Part shown: positions 243 to 39,658 of the stretch, piece by piece | How positions within the stretch are numbered: position 1 is the stretch's first letter | Layout: the number at the start of each line of letters is the position of its first letter | Origin: Hydrogenobacter sp. T-2 | GTDB taxonomy: Bacteria; Aquificota; Aquificia; Aquificales; Aquificaceae | NCBI RefSeq assembly: GCF_033971325.1 | Contig: NZ_CP117180.1 | Coordinates: forward strand, 130,041-194,040 | Reading direction: 5' to 3' | DNA: 64,000 nt | Notes under the pieces: generated by a model | What the model was told of the DNA's origin: nothing | What the model saw: only the letters and a program-made list of their open reading frames with translations | Databases searched by the model: none | Translations under genes and position numbers: made by a program

Positions 243-279
243 CATGCTTAACCAAATCTTAACAATTATCTTCTATAAT
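238..279 (+). promoter_or_regulatory. Pho-box-like promoter of the P1B-ATPase operon
   Basis: CTTAAC occurs at 247-252 and again at 258-263, an 11-bp period (unit CTTAACCAAAT), with a weaker TTTAAC at 238-243. Ten bases after the last repeat lies a perfect TATAAT (274-279), the geometry of PhoB-activated promoters where the box replaces the -35. The ATG at 288 is 8 nt after the -10, so the transcript should be leaderless. The same layout precedes phoX in this window. Confidence 0.72.
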
Positions 280-287
280 CTTCTGCA

Positions 288-662
288 ATGATTGAGTATG
301 TATCTCTCAGAAAAGGTGAGGCAAGGCTCTACTTTTCAAGCACTGCGGAAAGGGAGCTTTTTCTCCGTGGCATGAACGGGGTGGAGGGGGTTGAGGGGGT
401 GGAATACAAGGAAAATACAAGGACGCTTCTGATTAGGTTCAAAGAGGGTAGTTTTGCCCACTATCTTATAGAAAATCTTAAACGCGAAAAGGACTATCAA
501 AGATTGGAGGGTGAGGATGTAAACTTCTACCTTCAGCCTTTCCTCAAGCATCCAGTGATAAAGCTCGCCTTTAGCACCGCACTGCTTGGCTGGAAGGTAG
601 GCTTGATTTCCTTTGCGGTTTGCAGTATGTTTTTAACTCCATACCTTAAAAGTAATCTCTAA
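288..662 (+). CDS. HMA2-like domain protein with C-terminal membrane segment, 124 aa
   Basis: The first ~80 residues look like a ferredoxin-fold HMA-type domain without the CxxC metal site, similar to the N-terminal part of the P-type ATPase two genes downstream. Residues ~95-118 are hydrophobic and probably form a membrane hairpin or single helix. There is no Shine-Dalgarno; the ATG sits 8 nt after a -10 box, consistent with a leaderless first gene of the operon. CDS order continues with two small membrane proteins and the ATPase, so a role in the same membrane system is inferred. Cysteine-less HMA-like domains of this sort accompany P1B-6 ATPases in other bacteria; direct metal binding is not indicated by the sequence. 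Confidence 0.7.
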   Translation: MIEYVSLRKGEARLYFSSTAERELFLRGMNGVEGVEGVEYKENTRTLLIRFKEGSFAHYLIENLKREKDYQRLEGEDVNFYLQPFLKHPVIKLAFSTALLGWKVGLISFAVCSMFLTPYLKSNL

Positions 663-673
663 GGAGGTAAGGC

Positions 674-988
674 ATGTTTAATGTGAGTATTCCAAGCACC
701 ATAGGTGGATGCCTTTCCACCAACATGATGTTGTACGGTTTTGGTGCCCTTGCGGGGCTCGTGGTCCTTAGTAGGCTCATGAGGGATGCAAGACCTTTTC
801 TTGTGTCTACTACTAAGGAGGTTATAGCCTTTCAGCAGTGGCTCAGCGGAAACCTTGAAGAGGGCAAAGAGTTCTGGGAGGACGTGGTCTCTGAAGCCAA
901 GCACCTCTATAGGCTTGAGGTGGAGAAAAAGTTAGAAATTCTCCAAAAACAGCAGGAGATACTACAAAGAATAAAAGAAAGACTGTGA
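674..988 (+). CDS. small membrane-anchored coiled-coil protein (DUF5132-like), 104 aa
   Basis: An N-terminal hydrophobic segment containing small-residue spacing (YGFGALAGLVVL, residues ~17-33) is followed by a long amphipathic, Glu/Lys-rich helix ending in a predicted coiled coil. This is the layout of short DUF5132-type proteins that travel with P1B ATPases, though I cannot confirm the family without a profile search. A strong AAGGAGG stands 7 nt before the ATG. It lies between the HMA-like protein and another small membrane protein, all codirectional. The glycine pattern could mediate helix packing in a membrane. Function unknown. Confidence 0.65.
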   Translation: MFNVSIPSTIGGCLSTNMMLYGFGALAGLVVLSRLMRDARPFLVSTTKEVIAFQQWLSGNLEEGKEFWEDVVSEAKHLYRLEVEKKLEILQKQQEILQRIKERL

Positions 989-1000
989 GGAGGTAAGGAC

Positions 1001-1204
1001 ATGAACCAGATAACTTCTATTCTTGGAAAGGCAGTATGCTCTGGTCCCTTTAGTTTTGCTTTCGGCTTTGGTATTGGCCTATTAGCCTTTTATATGCTCG
1101 ATAGGGCAAAGGAAAGGAGAAGGCTTGAAGAAACACAAAGAGAGATAGAAGCTATGGTTAAAGCCCTTGAGCTAAAGCTCCAGCAGGAGAGCAAGACAGA
1201 ATGA
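1001..1204 (+). CDS. small membrane protein with charged coiled-coil tail, 67 aa
   Basis: Contains one membrane helix with a GxGxG-type pattern (FGFGIGLLAF, residues ~21-31) followed by a highly charged helix (Arg/Glu/Lys). Its plan resembles the preceding 104-aa protein and suggests a shared scaffold role. GAGGAGG precedes the ATG. Its stop overlaps the ATPase start (ATGA), indicating translational coupling. It resembles no enzyme. Confidence 0.65.
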   Translation: MNQITSILGKAVCSGPFSFAFGFGIGLLAFYMLDRAKERRRLEETQREIEAMVKALELKLQQESKTE

Positions 1205-3324
1205 CCTACAAGGTAGAAAAGCTATCTCCTGGAAGACTGAGGCTTACCTCATACCTCTTTCAGTATCTACATCATCCTGACGAGACCTTAAGGGCTTACT
1301 TTTCAAGGTTTGGTGGTGTAAGGAGGGTGAGCTATTCAAGATCTTCTGGAAGGCTTATCCTTGAGTATGACACAAAGAACTTTGACCTTATAGAGTTTCT
1401 AAGCCATATTGAAAACACACCTCGTGATGTCTTTCTTGAGGACCTATCAAGGGAAAAGCAAAGCAAACAAAAAGAGGCTAATGGAGCTTCTCGTTGGCTT
1501 ATGCTTAGCACCTTGGGCTTTCTGCCCTACCTTATGAGGGGTCTTCTGCCCACCTCCTTGCTCGCAGGCATGACCCTGCTCCTTTCCAAGCCTGTTTTTG
1601 AAAAGGCGATTAGCTCTCTTAGAAAGGGTAAACTGGACGTGCATATGCTTGACTCCTCTGCCATAGCATTGGCAAGCCTTACAGGCAGTCCACTCTCTGC
1701 CCATACCATGGTCTTTCTCCTTGCCCTCGGTGATTACCTCTCTGAAAGGGTGGAAAGGAAGGCTTATGAGAAGATTGAAAAGCTCTTTTCTTACAAAGAG
1801 GACACTGCTTGGCTTATGATAGGCAACGGTCAGGCGGTAAAGGTAAAAGCCCTTGACCTCAAAAGGGGAGACCTTATAGCGGTCTACGCAGGGGAGAAGA
1901 TACCAGCGGACGGTGTAGTGGAAGAGGGAGATGCCCTTGTAAATCAAGCATCTCTTACAGGAGAATCTAACCCTGTCCACAAAAAGACGGGAGACAAGGT
2001 CTTTGCAGGAACCTTTGTGGAAGATGGCAAGCTCTACATAAGGGTGGAAGAGGTAGGAGAAGAGACGGTAGTGGCAAAGATAGCCAAGATAGTGGAAGAG
2101 AGCATAAAAGAGCCCATAAACATCCAAAGGATGGCAGAAGAAACAGCCAATAGATTGGTTATGCCCACAATAGGTCTTGGTGCTCTCTCTTATATCACAA
2201 GCGGTCAAATAAGCAGGCTCACTTCAACACTAATAATAGACTATCACACCGGCATTCACCTTGCCACACCTCTGACAGTGCTCTCCAGCGTGGCACAGGC
2301 TTCCACCTATGGCATCCTCATAAAGAGCGGTGGAAAACTTGAGGCTCTCTCAAGGGTAGACACCTTTGTGATGGACAAGACGGGCACTCTAACGGTGGGG
2401 CATCCAGTCATAGAAGATGTGGTGGGTCTTGAGGTTTCAGAGGATGAGACCCTTCTGTATTCTGCTTCTCTTGAGCAGAGGATAACTCATCCGGTGGCAA
2501 GGGCTATAGTAAAGCTCGCAGAAGCAAAAGGCTTGGAGCTCCTGCCAAGAGAAAACTCTCAATACCACATAGGTCTTGGAATAGAGGGTGAGCTAAATGG
2601 CACGAAGTTTATGCTTGGAAGCACGCGCTTTATGCAGAAAAAGAAGATAAGGATAAGCCAAGAAATAAGAAGCCTTGTGGACAAGTTTCACTCAGAGGCA
2701 AAGTCTGTGCTGTATCTTGTGAGAGAGAGAAAGATAGTAGGGCTTCTTACCTTCAGAGACCCTCTCAGGGAAGATGCAAAGGATGTGGTGGCGGAGCTAA
2801 AAAGAAGGGGCAAAAGGGTGGTGCTTTGCACGGGAGACAATGAGGGCATAGCCAAGTATATGGCAAAGGAGCTTGGTATAGAGGAGTATTATGCAAGGGT
2901 ATTCCCTGCGGAGAAGGCAAAGGTGGTGGAAAAGCTCAAAAAACAGGGAAGGGTGGTAGCCTTTGTGGGTGATGGTGTAAACGATTCGCCTGCTCTTTCT
3001 GTTGCGGACGTGGGTATTTCTCTGAGGAGCGGGACGGATATAGCTATAGAGGTGGCGGACGTGGTTATAGGGGACAGCCTTTGGCATCTTGTGGATGTGG
3101 TGGACATAGCGGAAAGAACTATAAGAAAATTAAAGACCATATACAGATTAAACGGTCTTGCAAACACGGTGGGTCTTATTGGGTCCGCCTTGGGACTCTT
3201 TGGTCCCTCAGTTTCAACGCTTATAAACAACGGCACTACAGTGCTGTTGGGCTTATATTCCATAAAAAACCCTAAGGAGGTGAAAAGCCATGGAAGAGAA
3301 GAAGGACCTTGCACAAGAGCTTGA
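1201..3324 (+). CDS. P1B-type (P1B-6-like) metal-transporting ATPase with cysteine-less TM4 motif
   Basis: A 707-aa P-type ATPase. Visible motifs: actuator TGES (253-256), phosphorylation DKTGT with Asp392, the P1B-specific HP dipeptide (430-431) and hinge GDGVND (590-595). The N-terminus holds a degenerate HMA-like domain without CxxC and an Arg-containing PGRLRL motif. The intramembrane metal site, normally CPC/SPC/TPC or SCA, reads D-Y-H-T-G at 347-351. Alignment of DY-HTG with the DY-SCA of the P1B-6 subclass suggests that subclass, but with no cysteine. Family members export or compartmentalise transition metals using ATP; P1B-6 enzymes are linked with iron, including ferrosome organelles. 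The substrate here is therefore uncertain. The gene is flanked by small membrane and coiled-coil proteins in one operon under a Pho-box-like promoter. Confidence 0.93.
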   Translation: MTYKVEKLSPGRLRLTSYLFQYLHHPDETLRAYFSRFGGVRRVSYSRSSGRLILEYDTKNFDLIEFLSHIENTPRDVFLEDLSREKQSKQKEANGASRWLMLSTLGFLPYLMRGLLPTSLLAGMTLLLSKPVFEKAISSLRKGKLDVHMLDSSAIALASLTGSPLSAHTMVFLLALGDYLSERVERKAYEKIEKLFSYKEDTAWLMIGNGQAVKVKALDLKRGDLIAVYAGEKIPADGVVEEGDALVNQASLTGESNPVHKKTGDKVFAGTFVEDGKLYIRVEEVGEETVVAKIAKIVEESIKEPINIQRMAEETANRLVMPTIGLGALSYITSGQISRLTSTLIIDYHTGIHLATPLTVLSSVAQASTYGILIKSGGKLEALSRVDTFVMDKTGTLTVGHPVIEDVVGLEVSEDETLLYSASLEQRITHPVARAIVKLAEAKGLELLPRENSQYHIGLGIEGELNGTKFMLGSTRFMQKKKIRISQEIRSLVDKFHSEAKSVLYLVRERKIVGLLTFRDPLREDAKDVVAELKRRGKRVVLCTGDNEGIAKYMAKELGIEEYYARVFPAEKAKVVEKLKKQGRVVAFVGDGVNDSPALSVADVGISLRSGTDIAIEVADVVIGDSLWHLVDVVDIAERTIRKLKTIYRLNGLANTVGLIGSALGLFGPSVSTLINNGTTVLLGLYSIKNPKEVKSHGREEGPCTRA

Positions 3325-3565
3325 AAGGATTAAGACAGAGCTTGAGGAGCTAAAGAAGAAGATGGGTATTGCGGAGGAGGAAAAGAGCCTAAAGGACCTC
3401 CCTGCGGAAGCCCTCTCAAAGGTTATGGAAGTTAGCAAAGAGATAGTCAAAACCACTGCGGAGATCGGAGAAAAGGCTCTCAAGGTTGTAAAGTATTCCG
3501 TTGAAGGTGCAGTAGAAGGTGCAAAGAAGGCTCTAAAGGAAGAGGAGAAGAAGGAACAAGGATGA
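3290..3565 (+). CDS. amphipathic coiled-coil protein, 91 aa
   Basis: Almost entirely predicted helix: a Lys/Glu heptad-like segment (residues ~5-30) followed by an amphipathic A/V/K/E-rich helix (~45-85) of the kind that binds membranes or packs against another helix. No cysteines, no signal peptide. It overlaps the 3' end of the ATPase gene by 35 bp and has AAGGAGGTG before its ATG, so coexpression is near certain. A structural role beside the ATPase is inferred from position only. Confidence 0.72.
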   Translation: MEEKKDLAQELERIKTELEELKKKMGIAEEEKSLKDLPAEALSKVMEVSKEIVKTTAEIGEKALKVVKYSVEGAVEGAKKALKEEEKKEQG

Positions 3566-3819
3566 ACTTTATAAGGACAAGGAGCGGAAGGTATCTTAAT
3601 ACTCTGCATGTTATATCCCTCTCGGTAGAGGAGGCAAAAATAGAGATAGAGGGCAAAAAGAGGCTGGTTTACAAGGTGGTTGCCTACATGAGCCAGCCTC
3701 TCCTTCCTGCGGTTTTGGGCATATACTCCACAGAAGAGAAGGCTTTTGAGGTCCTGGAGGACATCATTAGGAGGCTATCTCAGGATGAAAGGGTCATACA
3801 CATTGAAAGCGAATACTGA
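3562..3819 (+). CDS. hypothetical protein, 85 aa
   Basis: A small soluble alpha/beta protein of the type Aquificales and Firmicutes encode as short conserved hypotheticals: begins MNFIRTRSGRYLNT, has alternating strand-like segments, ends in an acidic tail. Start overlaps the preceding stop by 4 bp, so it belongs to the ATPase operon. No recognised catalytic residues. Function unknown. Confidence 0.6.
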   Translation: MNFIRTRSGRYLNTLHVISLSVEEAKIEIEGKKRLVYKVVAYMSQPLLPAVLGIYSTEEKAFEVLEDIIRRLSQDERVIHIESEY

Positions 3820-4138
3820 AGACTACATAAGGGAGCTTAAACTTCTTGCTCATCATATACAGGAGACGCACGGAGAAGTTCTCAAAAACATACAAGAACC
3901 CATCTTACTTGAAGTGGAGCTTCCTGAGAGAGAGATCGCACTATTTATCATAAGCTCCGAAGGAATTCGTCAAGCCATTAGCACTCAGGAAGCTAAAAAT
4001 GTGGTAAAAGTAAACTACAAAGACCTTATGAGGCTCGTGGAAAAACCCTCAAGGATAATCCGCTACATCTTTGAAGGGAGGGTAAGAATAAAGGGAGACT
4101 ACCAAAGAATTCTCTCCATCCTACAAAATCTTCTCTAA
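3785..4138 (+). CDS. SCP2-like sterol/lipid carrier domain protein, 117 aa
   Basis: The C-terminal half (KVNYKDLMRLVEKP, then an IFEGRVRIKGDY segment) matches the end of SCP2/sterol-carrier-like domains, in which an R/KGD..K element closes the fold. The open frame extends upstream inside the previous gene; I chose the ATG at 3785, and a TTG at 3803 with GAAAGGG upstream is an alternative. It overlaps the previous gene by 35 bp. SCP2-like proteins bind lipids or acyl groups, which would fit a membrane-compartment operon, but the ligand is unknown. Confidence 0.6.
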   Translation: MKGSYTLKANTEDYIRELKLLAHHIQETHGEVLKNIQEPILLEVELPEREIALFIISSEGIRQAISTQEAKNVVKVNYKDLMRLVEKPSRIIRYIFEGRVRIKGDYQRILSILQNLL

Positions 4139-4341
4139 AGAAGTCTGTTTATTGCCTTGGTTATGAGGTTTTCTATTAGCCCACCCACCACGAAGGACTC
4201 AATTAGTATGGTTCTGTCCTTTTCGGTAAGGAAGGTATCCCTTTCGCGTTTTCTGAGTTTCTCCCCCTTCTTAAGAAATCTCCTGTAGCAGTCCTTCTCC
4301 CTCTCAATCTCTTGGATTAGTGCCTCTATCCTCTCCTTCAT
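4135..4341 (-). CDS. small helical protein under Pho-box-like control, 68 aa
   Basis: A charged helical protein (Glu/Lys/Arg-rich first 45 residues, more hydrophobic C-terminus). I do not recognise it. Support for expression is the promoter: two CTTAAC repeats 11 bp apart and a -10-like hexamer just upstream, in the same geometry as phoX. The ATG lies 7 nt from the hexamer, so translation would be leaderless. It converges on the SCP2-like gene with a 4-bp overlap. A small effector of the phosphate response is possible but speculative. Confidence 0.55.
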   Translation of the reverse strand: MKERIEALIQEIEREKDCYRRFLKKGEKLRKRERDTFLTEKDRTILIESFVVGGLIENLITKAINRLL

Positions 4342-4348
4342 GTTAGAT

Positions 4349-4381
4349 AGTTTAACTGAAAAGTGTTAAGATTTTGTTAAG
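4349..4381 (-). promoter_or_regulatory. Pho-box-like promoter of the 68-aa ORF
   Basis: On the minus strand CTTAAC occurs at 4381-4376 and 4370-4365 (unit CTTAACAAAAT, 11-bp period). Ten bases downstream is TAAACT (4354-4349, 4 of 6 to TATAAT), then 7 nt to the ATG at 4341. No Shine-Dalgarno is present. Confidence 0.6.
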
Positions 4382-4421
4382 ATTTATGTTTTCTTCTTTG
4401 TGCTACACAAGGCAAAACTTA

Positions 4422-5525
4422 TTAAACAAGGACTCCTTGGTAAACATCAAGAAGTTTTTCAAAAGTAGCATTCCAAGAGAAATTACTAAGCACAAAGGAG
4501 CTGACCTTTTCTTTGTTAACCAGACTCACCTCGTTGCAGGCACGGACTATGGCGTGGTAGAAGGCTTCCAAAGTGAGCTCTTTTACCAAAAACTCCTTAA
4601 AAGGTTGTGTTTCAAGACCCATATCATAGGCAACCAGCAGACAACCACAAGCCTGAGCTTCAAGAAAGGCAAGCCCGTAGGTTTCTCCTGTAGAGGTGCT
4701 CACAAAGATATCACAGCTTGCATAAACTTTTGCCAAATCCTCTTCTCTTTGGAGGTATCCAAGATAGGTGAGGTTAGGAAGTTTCTGAGATAGCCTTTCT
4801 ACTCTTTTCCTTAGAGGACCGTCTCCTACCACCACAAGATGGAAAAGGGTAGGGTCAAGGTGTTGAAAGACTTCTAAGAGAAGGTCTAAGTTTTTCTCTG
4901 GCGAGAGCCTACCAGCGTATATTAGCTTAAATCTACCAGCATATATGCCAAGGGCTTTTTCAAAGTATGGGTCTCTTTTAGAGGGGTTAAAGACCTCCGT
5001 ATCCACTCCGAGGTTTACAGTGATTATGTTTTCAAGACCGCAGGCCATTAAAAACTCCTCCTGCACCCTTGAGGGGGTTATTATAAGGTCTGCCTTTGCG
5101 AGCTTTTTTCTTATGGTATGCTCCAAAAGCACCCTTTTGAGCCTTTCTGGAGCGGGCAAAAGCGAAAGGTCCGTCCTTATGTCAGAATGGTAAAAGACGC
5201 TTAGTAGATAGTTGTCAGACTTTAAATGATTTATGGGTTGATAGGTGCCACCCAGCTCTACTACATCAGGCTCCTCTATTTTCAGTATTTCCCTTATCTC
5301 CGCAAAGGAGGAGAAGAACCTATAACCACCTGTTAAAGGCAGAGGAAAGGAGGGAAGCTCGTAGACCTTGGTGGAGTTAATATGGTATGTTCTTCTTTCC
5401 TTTCCGGGTATTATAAGCACATGCTCTATACCCTTTTTCTGCATATACTTGCTTTTTTCAAGAAGGTATCTCCTTATACCTCCGCTTTTGCTATGAAAGT
5501 ATGGGGTTATGTCAACAAGTTTCAT
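4422..5525 (-). CDS. GT4-family glycosyltransferase, 367 aa
   Basis: A GT-B fold retaining glycosyltransferase of family GT4. The N-terminus carries the acceptor-domain signature (DITPYFHSKSGGIRRYLLE). The C-terminal half has the donor site: LIYAGRLSPEKNLDLLLE, VVGDGPLR and the EX7E region STGETYGLAFLEAQACG. It would transfer a sugar from a nucleotide-sugar to a lipid or sugar acceptor at the inner face of the membrane. An in-frame start five codons earlier exists, but the ATG at 5525 has GGGAGG upstream and is preferred; the gene overlaps the end of the PHP-GT4 gene. Last gene of a three-gene operon behind a four-repeat Pho-box-like promoter, suggesting glycolipid synthesis when phosphate is scarce. 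Confidence 0.88.
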   Translation of the reverse strand: MKLVDITPYFHSKSGGIRRYLLEKSKYMQKKGIEHVLIIPGKERRTYHINSTKVYELPSFPLPLTGGYRFFSSFAEIREILKIEEPDVVELGGTYQPINHLKSDNYLLSVFYHSDIRTDLSLLPAPERLKRVLLEHTIRKKLAKADLIITPSRVQEEFLMACGLENIITVNLGVDTEVFNPSKRDPYFEKALGIYAGRFKLIYAGRLSPEKNLDLLLEVFQHLDPTLFHLVVVGDGPLRKRVERLSQKLPNLTYLGYLQREEDLAKVYASCDIFVSTSTGETYGLAFLEAQACGCLLVAYDMGLETQPFKEFLVKELTLEAFYHAIVRACNEVSLVNKEKVSSFVLSNFSWNATFEKLLDVYQGVLV

Positions 5526-7758
5526 GGACAAGCCTCCCAAGACCAGCTATGGCTAACATGTAGTCTATGTAAGTTTTTCTCATATCAAGGCTTCTTGCGT
5601 AGTATAGGGCTTCTTGAGACATACTTCTCCTTAGGCTTTCATTGGATAGAAGAAGGGAGAGCTTTTCTACAAAGTCCTCGGGCTTTGTGGCTATAAAGCC
5701 ATTTACACCCTCTTGAACATGCTCGTGAGATGCACCCTTTGAGCTTACTACCACAGGAAGACCGCTTGCCATAGCCTCTAAAACCACTTGCCCATAGGTC
5801 TCTGTTTCAGAGGGGAATAAAAACGCGTCAGAGCTTGCGTAAGCGGTAGCCAGCTCCTCTCCCACCATATAACCCACAAGGTGCACATTCTTTGGTTTTT
5901 TGTTCTCTATCTCTTTCCTATAGGGTCCATCTCCCACTATCACAAAGATGTCTTCGGGGAAGCATTTGGCAGTGTAAAGGAAAGTATCCAAACCCTTTTC
6001 TTTGGAAACCCTACCCACATATAGGATAACTCTTTGGTGCTTTTTAACTCCGAGCCTTTTAGACCAGAAGTCCTCATCTCTTTTGTAAGGAGAGAAGAGC
6101 TCTGTATCCACACCGCGTTTGAAGGTGCTTATCTTACTGTTATGTAATCCCTTATTTATAAAGGTCTTCATGTAGTGTTCTGAAGGGACAAAAAACTTGT
6201 CTGAAATATTACCAAGAAAGACAAAGGCTTTCCATAGAAGACTTTCCACTTCGGGGTCTCCCGTATATGTTCTTGCGTATGTGGGTATGTCTGTGTGGAA
6301 GGCAGAGGTAATCCTAAGACGGAGAATCTTACCCACAAGAAATCCCATAAGTCCAAGAGGACCTGGCGTGGCTATGTGAACTTGAGTAAAGCCTTCCCTC
6401 TCAAGAAGGTCCATAAGCTCTATCAGGTTTGGAAGACCCATTTTTAACTCTTCGTAAAAGGGTGTGGGTATCTCCACAATAGGCTCTAAGTTTATGAGCT
6501 TTTCCTCTTCCTTCACCTGTGAGTTAGAAACTATTATTGTGAAGGGTAGGTCTTCCTCAAGGGCTATCTGTCTTATGAGCTTAGCACTTCTTGCAACGCC
6601 GTTTATATGGTGGTAGGTGTCTGTAAGGTAGGCAACCTTTGGAGACCTTCCGTTGAGTATACCAAACTCTTTTCCAAGAACCTTTATCTTTTCCTCTTCC
6701 CTTTTTTGGGCGTATTTTAAAAAGGCGGGGAAGCCATGAGCCATGAGGGACAGGCATAGCTCCCCAAGGGTTTGCGGTGAGGGGCTTTTCAAAAACCTTT
6801 CCAAAGTAAAAGAGGGCAGTTTTTTTGCTATTTCCCTCAATAGGTCTGACCTCTCGGACTTTATACCGAGAAAATTTCTCAAAAGCATACCCACCAGTGG
6901 GTTGTCTGAGTGCATAAAGACATAATCGGTTATGGGTCTCACTTCAGAGGGTATATGGTTTTTGCTCTTTAAGAAGTCATAGCCTACTCTGCATATCATG
7001 TTTAGAAGCCTTTTGTCTCCCAGCTCTTCTGTATCCACATGCGTTCTCCCTTCCCATAGACCCCTTAAAAAGTCCTCTTTGCTTACCGCACCCTCAACCG
7101 CAGTCCAAGTCTTTCCCACGTCCATTCCACCATGGTCATCTGAGCCTGCGGTGAAGGCTATTCTATCTCTTATCCTCTGAGGCTCTATCCTGTGTCTTTC
7201 CGCAAGGGCATGTATCTTATCCCATCCATCGTAGGCACGGGCTATGGACTCTTCCACATACCTAACATTGTCTCCCCTTGTCCCGTTTATCACCTCCCAG
7301 TTGTCAAAGAGTAAAACCAACTTTTCTAAAAGGCTACGGGTTATCTTAGTTCCCTGAACAGAATATAGAGGATGGGCAAGGGAGTGGGCTATTCTATGAG
7401 ACTTTAGGTATTTGACAAAATCGTAAAGGTTGTTTCTTAGCCTTAGAAGGTCTTGATGTTGAGCCTCCGTGATGCCGTATACCAGCACATGAACCTTTCC
7501 CTTCTCTTCGGGAATTTCCACCGTATACTCACAGCTTATAAAGACCTCAGGAAGATGTGCCAGCTCAAGGACTCCGTTTATGGTGTTGTGGTCTGTAATG
7601 GTTATAAAGCTCATACCCCTGTCTTTGAGCCTTTTGTATATCTCCATAGGCTCTGTGAAGCTCTCTGGACATCCCACCAGCCTACTAAACCAACCCCCCG
7701 GCAGGTTGGAAGCCTTTGAATGAAGGTGCAAGTCCGCTTTTGCTAAGTAATTCCCCAT
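5512..7758 (-). CDS. PHP-domain / GT4 glycosyltransferase fusion, 748 aa
   Basis: Two domains. Residues ~1-240 are a PHP metal-dependent phosphoesterase-like domain: ADLHLHS near residue 8, TDHN near 57, then AHPL and a GSDDHGG motif. Residues ~370-740 are a GT4 glycosyltransferase (VAYLTDTYHHINGVARSAK; RGVDTELF; ILYVGRVSKEKGLD; VGDGPYR; ETETYGQVVLEAMASGLPVV). GT4 enzymes of this kind build phosphate-free glycolipids or mannosides; the PHP domain may hydrolyse a phosphate monoester in the same route. Both domains look intact. It overlaps the downstream GT4 gene and the upstream DUF2334 gene, so it is the middle gene of one operon. The acceptor and sugar cannot be read from sequence. Confidence 0.88.
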   Translation of the reverse strand: MGNYLAKADLHLHSKASNLPGGWFSRLVGCPESFTEPMEIYKRLKDRGMSFITITDHNTINGVLELAHLPEVFISCEYTVEIPEEKGKVHVLVYGITEAQHQDLLRLRNNLYDFVKYLKSHRIAHSLAHPLYSVQGTKITRSLLEKLVLLFDNWEVINGTRGDNVRYVEESIARAYDGWDKIHALAERHRIEPQRIRDRIAFTAGSDDHGGMDVGKTWTAVEGAVSKEDFLRGLWEGRTHVDTEELGDKRLLNMICRVGYDFLKSKNHIPSEVRPITDYVFMHSDNPLVGMLLRNFLGIKSERSDLLREIAKKLPSFTLERFLKSPSPQTLGELCLSLMAHGFPAFLKYAQKREEEKIKVLGKEFGILNGRSPKVAYLTDTYHHINGVARSAKLIRQIALEEDLPFTIIVSNSQVKEEEKLINLEPIVEIPTPFYEELKMGLPNLIELMDLLEREGFTQVHIATPGPLGLMGFLVGKILRLRITSAFHTDIPTYARTYTGDPEVESLLWKAFVFLGNISDKFFVPSEHYMKTFINKGLHNSKISTFKRGVDTELFSPYKRDEDFWSKRLGVKKHQRVILYVGRVSKEKGLDTFLYTAKCFPEDIFVIVGDGPYRKEIENKKPKNVHLVGYMVGEELATAYASSDAFLFPSETETYGQVVLEAMASGLPVVVSSKGASHEHVQEGVNGFIATKPEDFVEKLSLLLSNESLRRSMSQEALYYARSLDMRKTYIDYMLAIAGLGRLVHETC

Positions 7759-8431
7759 AGCTTATTAACCTCCTTTCCTTTTTTATATTGCTTAGTATTT
7801 CTTTCCAAAGCCTGACCTTTCTCTCGTCTCTAAAGTCTGTCATATGAAGTGCAAGCCTGAGAACTTGGTGGTCTTTGTAGAGCCTTTGCATGCTGGGAAG
7901 AGCCTTTAAGCTAAGCCAAGACAGAAGATTTCTACTGCTAAAGCTAAGAACGGGAGAGCTTATGCTTTTTTCATTGCCTAAGTCTTTTATATGCCACCTG
8001 TAGGCTACGCCTTCAAAACCAAGAGAGTAAAGCACATCCTCAAGGTAAGGATTTCCTATCCATGCGGGTGGGACAAAGATGGTGGTTTTTAGACCGAGGT
8101 ATTCCATAAGCTCCAAGCCTGAGCGAACCCTCTCATAGGTTTCAATTAGGTCAAGTCCTCCAAACTCTCCCTCCCCGTCCGTCCAAAGCAGGTCTTGAAG
8201 CCTTTTTTTGCCTTTGTGTGTATAACCGTGCAATACTAACTCCGCTCCGAGGTTTTTTATGAGGTTCAAAAAGTTCCCATCTCCTCTCAGTGGTGCATAT
8301 TCCCAGAAGTAAGGCACTACCAAGAGGGAAAATCTATTCAATTCCACATCCTCTAAAAGCTCAAGGGCACTTAAAAACTCCACCCTATAGTAAGGGCTCA
8401 CATCATGCAGTTCCACTATTGCGAGCTTCAT
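7685..8431 (-). CDS. DUF2334-like polysaccharide-deacetylase-fold protein, 248 aa
   Basis: Begins MKLAIVELHDVSPYY, the N-terminal Asp/His-containing strand of the NodB/DUF2334 fold, with a second metal-type motif LHGYTHKG near residue 92. These resemble metal-dependent deacetylases of the carbohydrate esterase 4 fold. There is no signal peptide, so it acts in the cytoplasm, perhaps on a glycolipid or nucleotide-sugar intermediate. It is the first gene of the operon with the two GT4 enzymes and overlaps the second gene by 74 bp. The ATG is 7 nt from the -10 of the Pho-box-like promoter and has no Shine-Dalgarno, so a leaderless start is likely. Confidence 0.75.
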   Translation of the reverse strand: MKLAIVELHDVSPYYRVEFLSALELLEDVELNRFSLLVVPYFWEYAPLRGDGNFLNLIKNLGAELVLHGYTHKGKKRLQDLLWTDGEGEFGGLDLIETYERVRSGLELMEYLGLKTTIFVPPAWIGNPYLEDVLYSLGFEGVAYRWHIKDLGNEKSISSPVLSFSSRNLLSWLSLKALPSMQRLYKDHQVLRLALHMTDFRDERKVRLWKEILSNIKKERRLISYGELLSKSGLAPSFKGFQPAGGLV

Positions 8432-8438
8432 GAGAATA

Positions 8439-8493
8439 AGGATAGGTTGGAAAAGTTAAGATTTCTTTAAGGTTTGGTTAAGATTTGGTTAAG
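8439..8493 (-). promoter_or_regulatory. four-repeat Pho-box-like promoter of the DUF2334-GT4 operon
   Basis: On the minus strand four repeats stand at exact 11-bp steps: CTTAAC (8493-8488), CTTAAC (8482-8477), CTTAAA (8471-8466) and CTTAAC (8460-8455), i.e. two tandem 22-bp boxes. Ten bases downstream of the last is TATCCT (8444-8439) as -10, then 7 nt to the ATG at 8431. This is the most complete example of the motif in the window. Confidence 0.78.
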
Positions 8494-37697: not shown

Positions 37698-37733
37698 AGT
37701 CTTAATGAAATCTTAACAGTAATACCTTATCTT
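37693..37733 (+). promoter_or_regulatory. Pho-box-like promoter of phoX
   Basis: CTTAAT (37701-37706) and CTTAAC (37712-37717) are 11 bp apart, with an additional CTTAAA at 37693. Ten bases later is TATCTT (37728-37733), then 8 nt to the ATG. This is the promoter whose gene identifies the motif as phosphate-linked. Confidence 0.7.
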
Positions 37734-37741
37734 TAGAAACC

Positions 37742-39658
37742 ATGGGAGAATACTTTGAAGAGATTTTGGAAAGGGCGATTAGCCGTAGAGATGTTCTAAA
37801 AGGGATGCTGTTGGGTAGTGTTGTGCTGGGACTATCTCCTAAAGTTTCCTTCTCAAAAAGTTTGGGCTTTAGAAGCATTCAACCAAGCACAGAGGATAGG
37901 ATAATTCTGCCAGAAGGTTTTGAATATGTGGTGCTCATACGCTGGGGTGATGCCTTAGACAAAGGACCATCTCTTGACTGGAAGAGGATTTACGAAAAAG
38001 GTCCTTCATGGGAGGATGTGGAGCGTCAAAAATTTTCCTTTGGATATAACTGTGATTATGTAGGTTTTTTCAGACTGTCGGATGATAGGGCACTGCTTGT
38101 GGTAAACCATGAATATACAAATCCAGAGCTTATGTTTTCCAATTTTGCTCCCTCGGGGCAAAGACCAACCAGAGAAGAAGCTATGCTTATGTTAGAAGCA
38201 CATGGCGTGTCTGTGGTAGAAATAAGAAAGTCCAATGGTAAGTGGCATTATGTGAAAGGCTCACCTTACAATAGAAGGATAACAGGCTCTACCAGATGTG
38301 AAATAAGCGGTCTTGCAAAAGGGCACACACTCATGAAATCCTCCTACGATAAGGAAGGTGAGTTCGTATATGGCACTCTAAATAACTGCTCTGGTGGTAA
38401 AACTCCTTGGGGAACGGTGTTAACCTGTGAAGAGAACTTTCATAGCTACTTTTGGGGAGACGAGTTTAAGATAGAACACCCTAAAGCAAGGTTGATACAG
38501 GAACTTCACTACCGTTATAGGGTTCCCAGTGAGTGGGCTATGGTGTATGGTTTTTATAAATACAGTGAGCGTTTCAATATAGAAAAGGAGCCTACAGAAC
38601 CACTTCGTTTCGGTTGGGTGGTAGAGGTTGACCCATTTAACCCTACAAAACCACCTATAAAGAGAACCGCTCTCGGAAGGTTCAAGCACGAAGCAGCAAA
38701 CTGTGTAGTAGCACCAGATGGTAGGGTGGTGGTCTATATGGGAGATGACGAAAGGTTTGAGTATGTCTATAAGTTTATTACAAAGGGTAAATATGACCCT
38801 AACAACAGGCAAGCAAACATGGACCTTCTTGATGAGGGTGAGCTATATGTGGCAAAGTTCAAGGATGACCTTACTGGAGAGTGGATACTTATAGCCAAGT
38901 GCGAAAAAAAGCCAGATGGCACTTATGCTATAACACCCAATCCAGACCTTCCTGAACCTTTCAAAAGCGACCCAGTCCTTTGTTTCATAAACACAAGAGG
39001 CGCTGCGGATGCACTTGGAGCTACCATGATGGACAGACCAGAAGATATAGAATGGAATCCGTTGACAAAAAGTGCATGGGTAGCTCTAACCTTTAATGAA
39101 AGAAGAGGGGCAAGCGGGCAACCGGGAACTGACAGAGCTAACCCCAGAGCGAACAATGTAATGGGGCACGTGTTAGAGATAAAAGAGGCAAACGGTAATC
39201 CTGCGTCAACCACATTCACGTGGCAAATACCAATACTTTGTGGTGATCCCAACGCTTCTGAAGAAAACAAGAAATTGATAATTTACGGTCAACCTGCAAG
39301 CTCCTCAACGCCTGCTATTTCTGCACCAGACAACTTTGTGATAGATAGGCTCGGAAACGTATGGATAGCCACAGATGGCAATCCAAACTCCTCAAGACTC
39401 AAGAAGAACGACGGAGTTTACGTGCTTAATCCCTTTACTAAAGAATTTAAAATGTTCCTCTCTGGAGTGCCTGGCTGTGAAATATGCGGACCTGAGTTTT
39501 CGGATGACTGGAAAACCTTTTTCTGTGCCATACAACACCCAGGAGAGGGTGGTTTAGGGGGTCAACTAACAAGATGGCCATATGAGAGCGATATTCCAAT
39601 TCCAAGACCTTCGGTAATAGCAGTCTGGAGGAAGGACGGAGGAGAAATATTTGCATAA
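37742..39658 (+). CDS. phoX: PhoX-type alkaline phosphatase (DUF839), Tat-exported
   Basis: A 638-aa secreted phosphatase. The N-terminus has a twin-arginine motif SRRDVLKGM followed by a hydrophobic stretch, so it is exported folded. PhoX motifs: GYNCDYVGFF, NHEYTNPE, GGKTPWGTVLTCEENFHSY and the C-terminal GPEFSDDWKTFFCAIQHPGEGG. PhoX enzymes use iron and calcium and release phosphate from organic esters. Pho-box-like repeats directly upstream support induction by phosphate limitation; the ATG is predicted to start a leaderless message. Confidence 0.94.
   Translation: MGEYFEEILERAISRRDVLKGMLLGSVVLGLSPKVSFSKSLGFRSIQPSTEDRIILPEGFEYVVLIRWGDALDKGPSLDWKRIYEKGPSWEDVERQKFSFGYNCDYVGFFRLSDDRALLVVNHEYTNPELMFSNFAPSGQRPTREEAMLMLEAHGVSVVEIRKSNGKWHYVKGSPYNRRITGSTRCEISGLAKGHTLMKSSYDKEGEFVYGTLNNCSGGKTPWGTVLTCEENFHSYFWGDEFKIEHPKARLIQELHYRYRVPSEWAMVYGFYKYSERFNIEKEPTEPLRFGWVVEVDPFNPTKPPIKRTALGRFKHEAANCVVAPDGRVVVYMGDDERFEYVYKFITKGKYDPNNRQANMDLLDEGELYVAKFKDDLTGEWILIAKCEKKPDGTYAITPNPDLPEPFKSDPVLCFINTRGAADALGATMMDRPEDIEWNPLTKSAWVALTFNERRGASGQPGTDRANPRANNVMGHVLEIKEANGNPASTTFTWQIPILCGDPNASEENKKLIIYGQPASSSTPAISAPDNFVIDRLGNVWIATDGNPNSSRLKKNDGVYVLNPFTKEFKMFLSGVPGCEICGPEFSDDWKTFFCAIQHPGEGGLGGQLTRWPYESDIPIPRPSVIAVWRKDGGEIFA

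Follow-up and report, generated by a model that had tools for sequence, protein, structure and literature searches.

Pho boxes are direct repeats with a period of 11 bp, whose position in the promoter is familiar from E. coli. In Synechocystis, the box consists of three tandem repeats with a TTAA core, all of which are required for binding of PhoB, according to the consulted part of PMC11126600. Two systems acting on membrane lipids are closest to the genes described here. The first is PlcP-Agt, where a phosphate-linked hydrolase is combined with a GT4 glycosyltransferase (consulted sections of PMC9239053), and the second is GpgSDF of P. aeruginosa, where a GT4 enzyme and a predicted deacetylase act on a membrane lipid to make GlcN-PG (excerpt of PMC12713373). 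The HexSDF system of Clostridioides difficile makes aminohexosyl-hexosyldiradylglycerol, as outlined in the consulted part of PMC10128005, thus illustrating that a route to such a lipid exists.

The locus investigated in this study is contained in a window (the whole stretch of DNA that was analysed) of 64,000 nt, with the following features:

8460..8493, last unit extending to 8450, minus strand: Pho-box array with 11-bp period and core CTTAA
8439..8444, minus strand: -10 hexamer TATCCT, 10 bp past the last CTTAAC
7685..8431, minus strand: DUF2334 / GpgD-like amino-sugar deacetylase, 248 aa (PF10096, E 1.1e-21)
5512..7758, minus strand: fusion of a PHP phosphoesterase domain with GT4, 748 aa, 74-nt overlap with the DUF2334 gene
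4422..5525, minus strand: GT4 glycosyltransferase, GpgS-like, 367 aa, 14-nt overlap with the PHP-GT4 gene
4349..4381, minus strand: second Pho box (pattern match), directly downstream of the DUF2334 operon; 68-aa ORF at 4135-4341
37701..37733, plus strand: Pho box before phoX, which extends over 37742-39658 (PF05787, E 1.1e-146)
247..279, plus strand: Pho box (pattern match) before a heavy-metal P-type ATPase gene group at 288-3324

Read on the minus strand from 8493 to 8429, the promoter of the operon has the sequence CTTAACCAAAT CTTAACCAAAC CTTAAAGAAAT CTTAACTTTTC CAACC TATCCT TATTCTC ATG. Its four units begin at 8493, 8482, 8471 and 8460, exactly in the 11-bp phase described in an initial annotation of this DNA, although the third reads CTTAAA instead of CTTAAC, and the distances of 10 bp to TATCCT and of 7 nt from there to the ATG (8431) are both as claimed. 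The -35 position, 17 bp upstream of TATCCT, is occupied by AAGAAA, which is identical to TTGACA in three of six letters, and the array promoter is thus devoid of a usable -35 element. In the sequence, the array begins a few bases past a GC-rich hairpin located behind the stop codon of thiC. Its tandem direct repeats resemble the cyanobacterial PhoB/SphR Pho box and the double pho boxes of E. coli, and it shares with Synechocystis the TTAA core and the location of the box just upstream of the -10 element, where it replaces the -35. Unlike in these Pho boxes, the core is CTTAAC combined with an A-rich linker and the gene starts right behind the -10 element at five of the nine sites of the genome. 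The DUF2334 promoter carries four units, whereas each of the remaining eight sites has two in phase. Since the ATG follows the -10 hexamer by only 7 nt, the transcript of the operon is probably leaderless and would start at the ATG or adjoining it.

The assignment of the array as a tandem (double) Pho box is strongly supported, as the same box is found before phosphate genes of the same genome. The two-unit box followed by 10 bp and TANNNT matches at nine genomic sites with at most one mismatch, and the two-unit box pattern at 16 places with up to three mismatches, compared to three in controls. Besides the boxes listed above, others precede pstS-pstC (TIGR02136, E 4.7e-89; TIGR02138, E 2.9e-70), phoU (TIGR02135, E 2.3e-67), a homologue of arsC/low-molecular-weight phosphatases, the gene of a DUF302 protein and a small-GTPase gene group. 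The combination of 11-bp direct repeats of the TTAA type, a fixed distance to the -10 element without a -35, and boxes before pst, phoU and alkaline phosphatase genes is that of a Pho promoter. Consequently, the double PhoB box and phosphate-responsive promoter proposed in the initial annotation are backed by regulon content, spacing and conservation, while binding and induction remain predicted. At the five sites with a close gene start (130287, 134389, 138479, 167741 and 960994 of G000:C1), the ATG is located 7–8 nt behind the -10 hexamer, which leaves no room for a Shine-Dalgarno leader. This geometry recurs in relatives for arsC, DUF2334 and the 68-aa ORF, and it suggests, as far as can be read from sequence, that leaderless mRNAs are a feature of this Pho regulon.

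Several of the genes behind these boxes have properties of their own. The group following the box at 247-279 encodes a heavy-metal P-type ATPase (TIGR01525, E 2.2e-145) together with two proteins of 124 and 104 aa, and this layout (window 247-3324) is reminiscent of ferrosome (fez) iron-storage operons. The 68-aa ORF, which is the next gene on the strand after the DUF2334 operon and has its own box, shows no Pfam or NCBIfam match; a box at the matching position is also present in G038, G039, G042, G046 and G048. In the GTPase group (L055, minus strand, 5627-7039 and 2661-5649), the box is followed by a 169-aa protein that matches no family, by another small ORF and by a small Ras-like GTPase, with further genes that, by eye, include an apparent EAL/GGDEF protein, and the group ends upstream of pstS. 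It may serve signalling or motility in connection with phosphate. In a Sulfurimonas MAG (L149, 1992-7488), genes for PHP-GT4 and GT4 are located behind genes that, judged by eye, confer arsenate resistance; in the window's genome, arsC likewise belongs to the Pho regulon.

The operon itself consists of three overlapping minus-strand genes, DUF2334, PHP-GT4 and GT4, and contains no polymerase, flippase or sugar-nucleotide genes. DUF2334, which is listed without function in the consulted portion of PMC3597751, has as best NCBIfam match GpgD (NF053788, E 1.5e-28) with 99.9 bits, not reaching the cut-off of 280, and the second GT4 matches best, over its full length, to GpgS (NF053787, E 2.2e-59) with 201.1 bits, not reaching the cut-off of 480. 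The GT4 part of the fusion scores 112.4 bits against GpgS and 110.6 bits against the LTA glycolipid-anchor enzyme IagA/BgsA. On circumstantial grounds, the family matches point to the three proteins as putative parts for the synthesis of an amino-sugar glycolipid.

The combination of a phosphate-linked hydrolase with a glycosyltransferase, the latter matching at the level of the GT4 family, resembles PlcP-Agt. In contrast to PlcP-Agt, however, the candidate hydrolase is a PHP domain fused to GT4 instead of a separate metallophosphoesterase, and a second GT4 and a deacetylase are added. No calcineurin-like phosphoesterase is found in the operon, and the three Metallophos proteins of the genome, detected with general models of which none is PlcP-specific, are all encoded elsewhere: a YaeI/LpxG-like protein beside the PhoB candidate, an unclassified 396-aa frame and a 266-aa protein that may be YmdB-like. 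A plain PlcP-Agt system is rejected, as these general models detect no PlcP in the operon. With GpgSDF, the operon shares a GT4 and a predicted deacetylase directed at a membrane lipid, but it differs in scores below the family cut-offs, in the absence of the flippase GpgF from its three genes, in the extra PHP-GT4 and in the Pho box; a plain GpgSDF system is rejected on the basis of the scores and the missing flippase. Its predicted product, a hexose and a deacetylated N-acetylhexosamine on diradylglycerol, is like that of HexSDF. The operon thus apparently represents neither PlcP-Agt nor GpgSDF but an undescribed form of phosphate-starvation lipid remodelling, and a literature search that combined PHP domain, glycolipid and phosphate starvation found no description of such a system in the parts of the sources covered.

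We consider it reasonably probable that the locus is a Pho-controlled lipid-remodelling operon, which by way of its tandem Pho box makes a phosphorus-free aminohexosyl-hexosyl-diradylglycerol. Upon phosphate starvation, a PhoB-type regulator, for which a 223-aa protein encoded at 771 kb is the best candidate, would be activated and, by binding to the 11-bp direct repeats, would replace the missing -35 and bring RNA polymerase to TATCCT. From the enzyme families, we infer the substrates, the order of steps and the product. PHP-GT4 would glycosylate diradylglycerol to hexosyl-diradylglycerol, with the metal site of its PHP domain plausibly hydrolysing phospholipid to supply the diradylglycerol in PlcP's place. 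The second GT4 would attach an N-acetylhexosamine and DUF2334 would deacetylate it, which would result in a cationic, phosphorus-free aminohexosyl-hexosyl-diradylglycerol in place of phospholipid.

The genomic neighbourhood of related genes bears on this proposal. The phylum-wide search for PHP-GT4 covered 136 genomes, and in a search of genome contigs the best 80 of 199 relatives of the fusion were used. Among these best 80 of 199, DUF2334, the fusion and GT4 are found together in Aquificaceae, Thermodesulfobacteriota and Hydrogenothermaceae (L119–L145 except the contig-cut L133, plus L190), and most Geobacter-type and other loci carry the fusion alone. In most of its distant relatives, from Geobacter, Verrucomicrobia and others, the fusion is accompanied by neither DUF2334 nor the second GT4, and the search of 52 such loci detected no Pho box of this kind, thus indicating that a link of the fusion with phosphate does not exist in every lineage. 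At 13 loci outside the main genera, the box was found in two (L143 and L190) compared to none in controls; in L141, L142, L144 and L145 the genes are present, with no recognised box in the locus DNA searched. In L129, L131 and L142, phoX adjoins the operon.

In the Sulfurihydrogenibium locus L143, a Pho box at 168-200 is followed in one gene row by OlsB-like (NF052554, E 1.9e-24), OlsA-like (NF052553, E 4.6e-38), DUF2334, PHP-GT4 and GT4 genes, with the Ols and GpgD scores of this locus below the equivalog cut-offs. An OlsA-like gene adjoins DUF2334 in nine loci (L086, L087, L088, L090 and L141–L145), four of which also contain an OlsB-like gene, and several of the others end before that region. 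Ornithine lipids are phosphorus-free and made under phosphate limitation, and the linkage of OlsB- and OlsA-like genes together with a Pho box favours phosphorus-free lipids also for the operon, although the window's own genome differs in that it contains no match to the OlsB-like protein of L143. The OlsB/OlsA-like pair may make ornithine lipid or may instead acylate the amino sugar. The role in glycolipid synthesis advanced by the initial annotation thus remains circumstantial, although it is strengthened by the lipid-glycosylation and deacetylation families, the Ols linkage behind a Pho box and the adjoining phoX in three relatives, whereas its statement that glycolipids replace phospholipids is unproven.

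The resemblance of the second GT4 to GpgS and of DUF2334 to GpgD could alternatively indicate that the operon makes, under Pho control, an aminoglycosyl phosphatidylglycerol of the GlcN-PG type, the product of gpgSDF (PMC12713373, in the excerpt consulted), to control charge without replacing phospholipid. We regard this as unlikely, as both equivalog scores remain far under their cut-offs and the operon carries an extra glycosyltransferase in PHP-GT4 and no gene for a flippase, and as the OlsB/OlsA-like linkage and the Pho box favour phosphorus-free lipids. On the other hand, the nearest characterised enzymes, GpgS and GpgD of P. aeruginosa, modify phosphatidylglycerol itself, which weighs against the preferred lipid-remodelling role, as a modification of this kind would save no phosphorus. 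Even less probable, in our view, is a Pho-regulated envelope polysaccharide or surface glycan, where the GT4s would build the sugar that DUF2334 deacetylates: although the GT4 domains also match exopolysaccharide and LPS transferases with lower scores, their best matches are lipid glycosyltransferases, an OlsA-like gene is linked and genes for polymerase, flippase and sugar-nucleotides are missing from the operon.

In 38 homologous sequences, which reach down to about 30% identity, the PHP metal ligands D9, H11, H13, D56, H57, H129, D207 and H209 are invariant and E77 and H90 nearly so, and this His/Asp/Glu set is found together with a PHP fold, as in PHP phosphoesterases. An AlphaFold2 model of the fusion has a mean pLDDT of 90.0. 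As a fold search with the whole chain was dominated by GT4 structures, a separate model of the PHP domain (pLDDT 88.6) was predicted and used for the search; it superimposes on PsfC (Z 17.9, rmsd 2.8, 207 aligned), 2yb1 (Z 15.4, rmsd 2.9, 176 aligned) and RNase AM (Z 14.8, rmsd 3.2, 181 aligned); the structure comparison was also run with Foldseek. A sequence search of the PDB with the PHP domain alone found nothing at E 0.1. The modelled PHP fold alone says nothing of the substrate. The linker contains a hydrophobic segment with a mean hydropathy of at least 1.2 in 29 of 38 rows. In the window's own protein the value is only 0.97, and insertion of the linker in the membrane is thus no more than suggested.

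It is conceivable, although we hold this more specific proposal only tentatively, that cleavage of the phospholipid head group and glycosylation of the diradylglycerol reside in one PHP-GT4 polypeptide, independent of PlcP, and that together with GT4 and DUF2334 this polypeptide leads to G-NG-DAG in Aquificota and Thermodesulfobacteriota. This lipid, which belongs to the predicted class with a hexose and a hexosamine on diacylglycerol, has been found in Yellowstone streamers and is attributed to 'unknown thermophilic bacteria' in Table 2 of PMC4318418, whose consulted part names Aquificae among the members of the G-NG-DAG-bearing streamers, and a second survey (PMC7044123, consulted in part) also contains G-NG and NG-GA headgroups. 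G-NG-DAG is thus a candidate for the product of the operon, whose sugar order may differ. In the portions of the hot-spring lipid literature covered, it is assigned neither to Aquificae nor to phosphate.

The genome encodes four OmpR-type regulators with a Trans_reg_C domain, and the 223-aa protein at 771 kb of G000:C1 is the only one with PhoB (TIGR02154) as best match (E 2e-70), with its 236.6 bits below the cut-off of 296.2. Its gene (L058 2593-4403, minus strand) overlaps an upstream gene, carries no recognised Pho box and is followed by that of the YaeI/LpxG-like metallophosphoesterase with overlapping ends; no histidine kinase adjoins it and no PhoR is linked at this locus. A HAMP histidine kinase is located behind phoU instead (L053 2378-4102). 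Binding to direct repeats is general in the OmpR family, and with four Trans_reg_C proteins in the genome, the array might be bound by another family member and the operon respond to a signal other than phosphate. We consider this improbable in light of the regulon content, since pstS, phoU and phoX carry the same box and the box is conserved across genera.

This conservation was investigated in a family set of 43 genomes, each at least 90% complete, where the strict box pattern has 72 matches in 20 genomes and none in the other 23, and the reversed control is absent from all 43. Of 28 new loci found in this search, 24 were readable and 21 of these have homologues of the same regulon genes downstream, which in 10 cases are pst, phoU or phoX, whereas L091, L092 and L114 have none; the other four of the 28, L100, L105, L110 and L113, had an ambiguous orientation and were left out of this count. 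Upstream regions of DUF2334 were scored at 30 loci over 24 core letters. The scan of relatives for the array before the same operon, as proposed in the initial annotation, found it kept in all 14 same-genus genomes, where the four units match at 23–24 of 24 core letters, the -10 element is located at +16 and the ATG follows it by 6–8 nt. Scores are 24, 22, 21 and 20 in genus g4 (n=4), 17, 17, 17, 18, 19 and 22 in g8 and 16 in g9, with the last one or two units and the -10 element mostly retained in the lower scorers of g8 and g9. Other genera (g20, g20, g16, g12 and g5) show scores of 14, 13, 12, 21 and 16; in the g12 genome G064, three in-phase units are followed by TAATAT.

Within the 64,000-nt window, the exact four-unit pattern matches once, and with up to three mismatches it has three matches, all overlapping the array, compared to 0.46 expected. 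The pair followed by 10 bp and TANNNT has five window matches at four sites with up to two mismatches, compared to 0.06 expected. Three units with two mismatches are not above chance (5 found, 4.39 expected), and the strength of the array thus rests on its exactness. The array is the sole site of TTAA-N7-TTAA-N7-TTAA in the 1,692,950 bases of the genome, where it contains two overlapping triples, each counted once per strand as TTAA is palindromic, and the reversed-pattern control is absent genome-wide. That the array is a functionless AT-rich repeat that arose by chance or from low complexity, as the TTAA-rich intergenic DNA and the occurrence of three units with two mismatches at least as often in shuffles could suggest, is thus rejected as next to impossible in light of the unique triple, the 72 family matches compared to none in controls, the retention in 14 of 14 same-genus genomes and window counts above expectation.

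Collectively, our study delineates a Pho regulon in the Aquificales, a thermophilic lineage of deep branching for which our literature search found no description in the parts of the sources covered. It provides a testable role for DUF2334 and for the widespread PHP-GT4 fusion, and it proposes genes for the aminoglycolipid G-NG-DAG of Yellowstone streamers. A possible link between phosphate and iron storage at the gene group of window 247-3324 is also of interest. If the proposed role of the operon is true, the lipid profiles of hot springs could reveal phosphate limitation.
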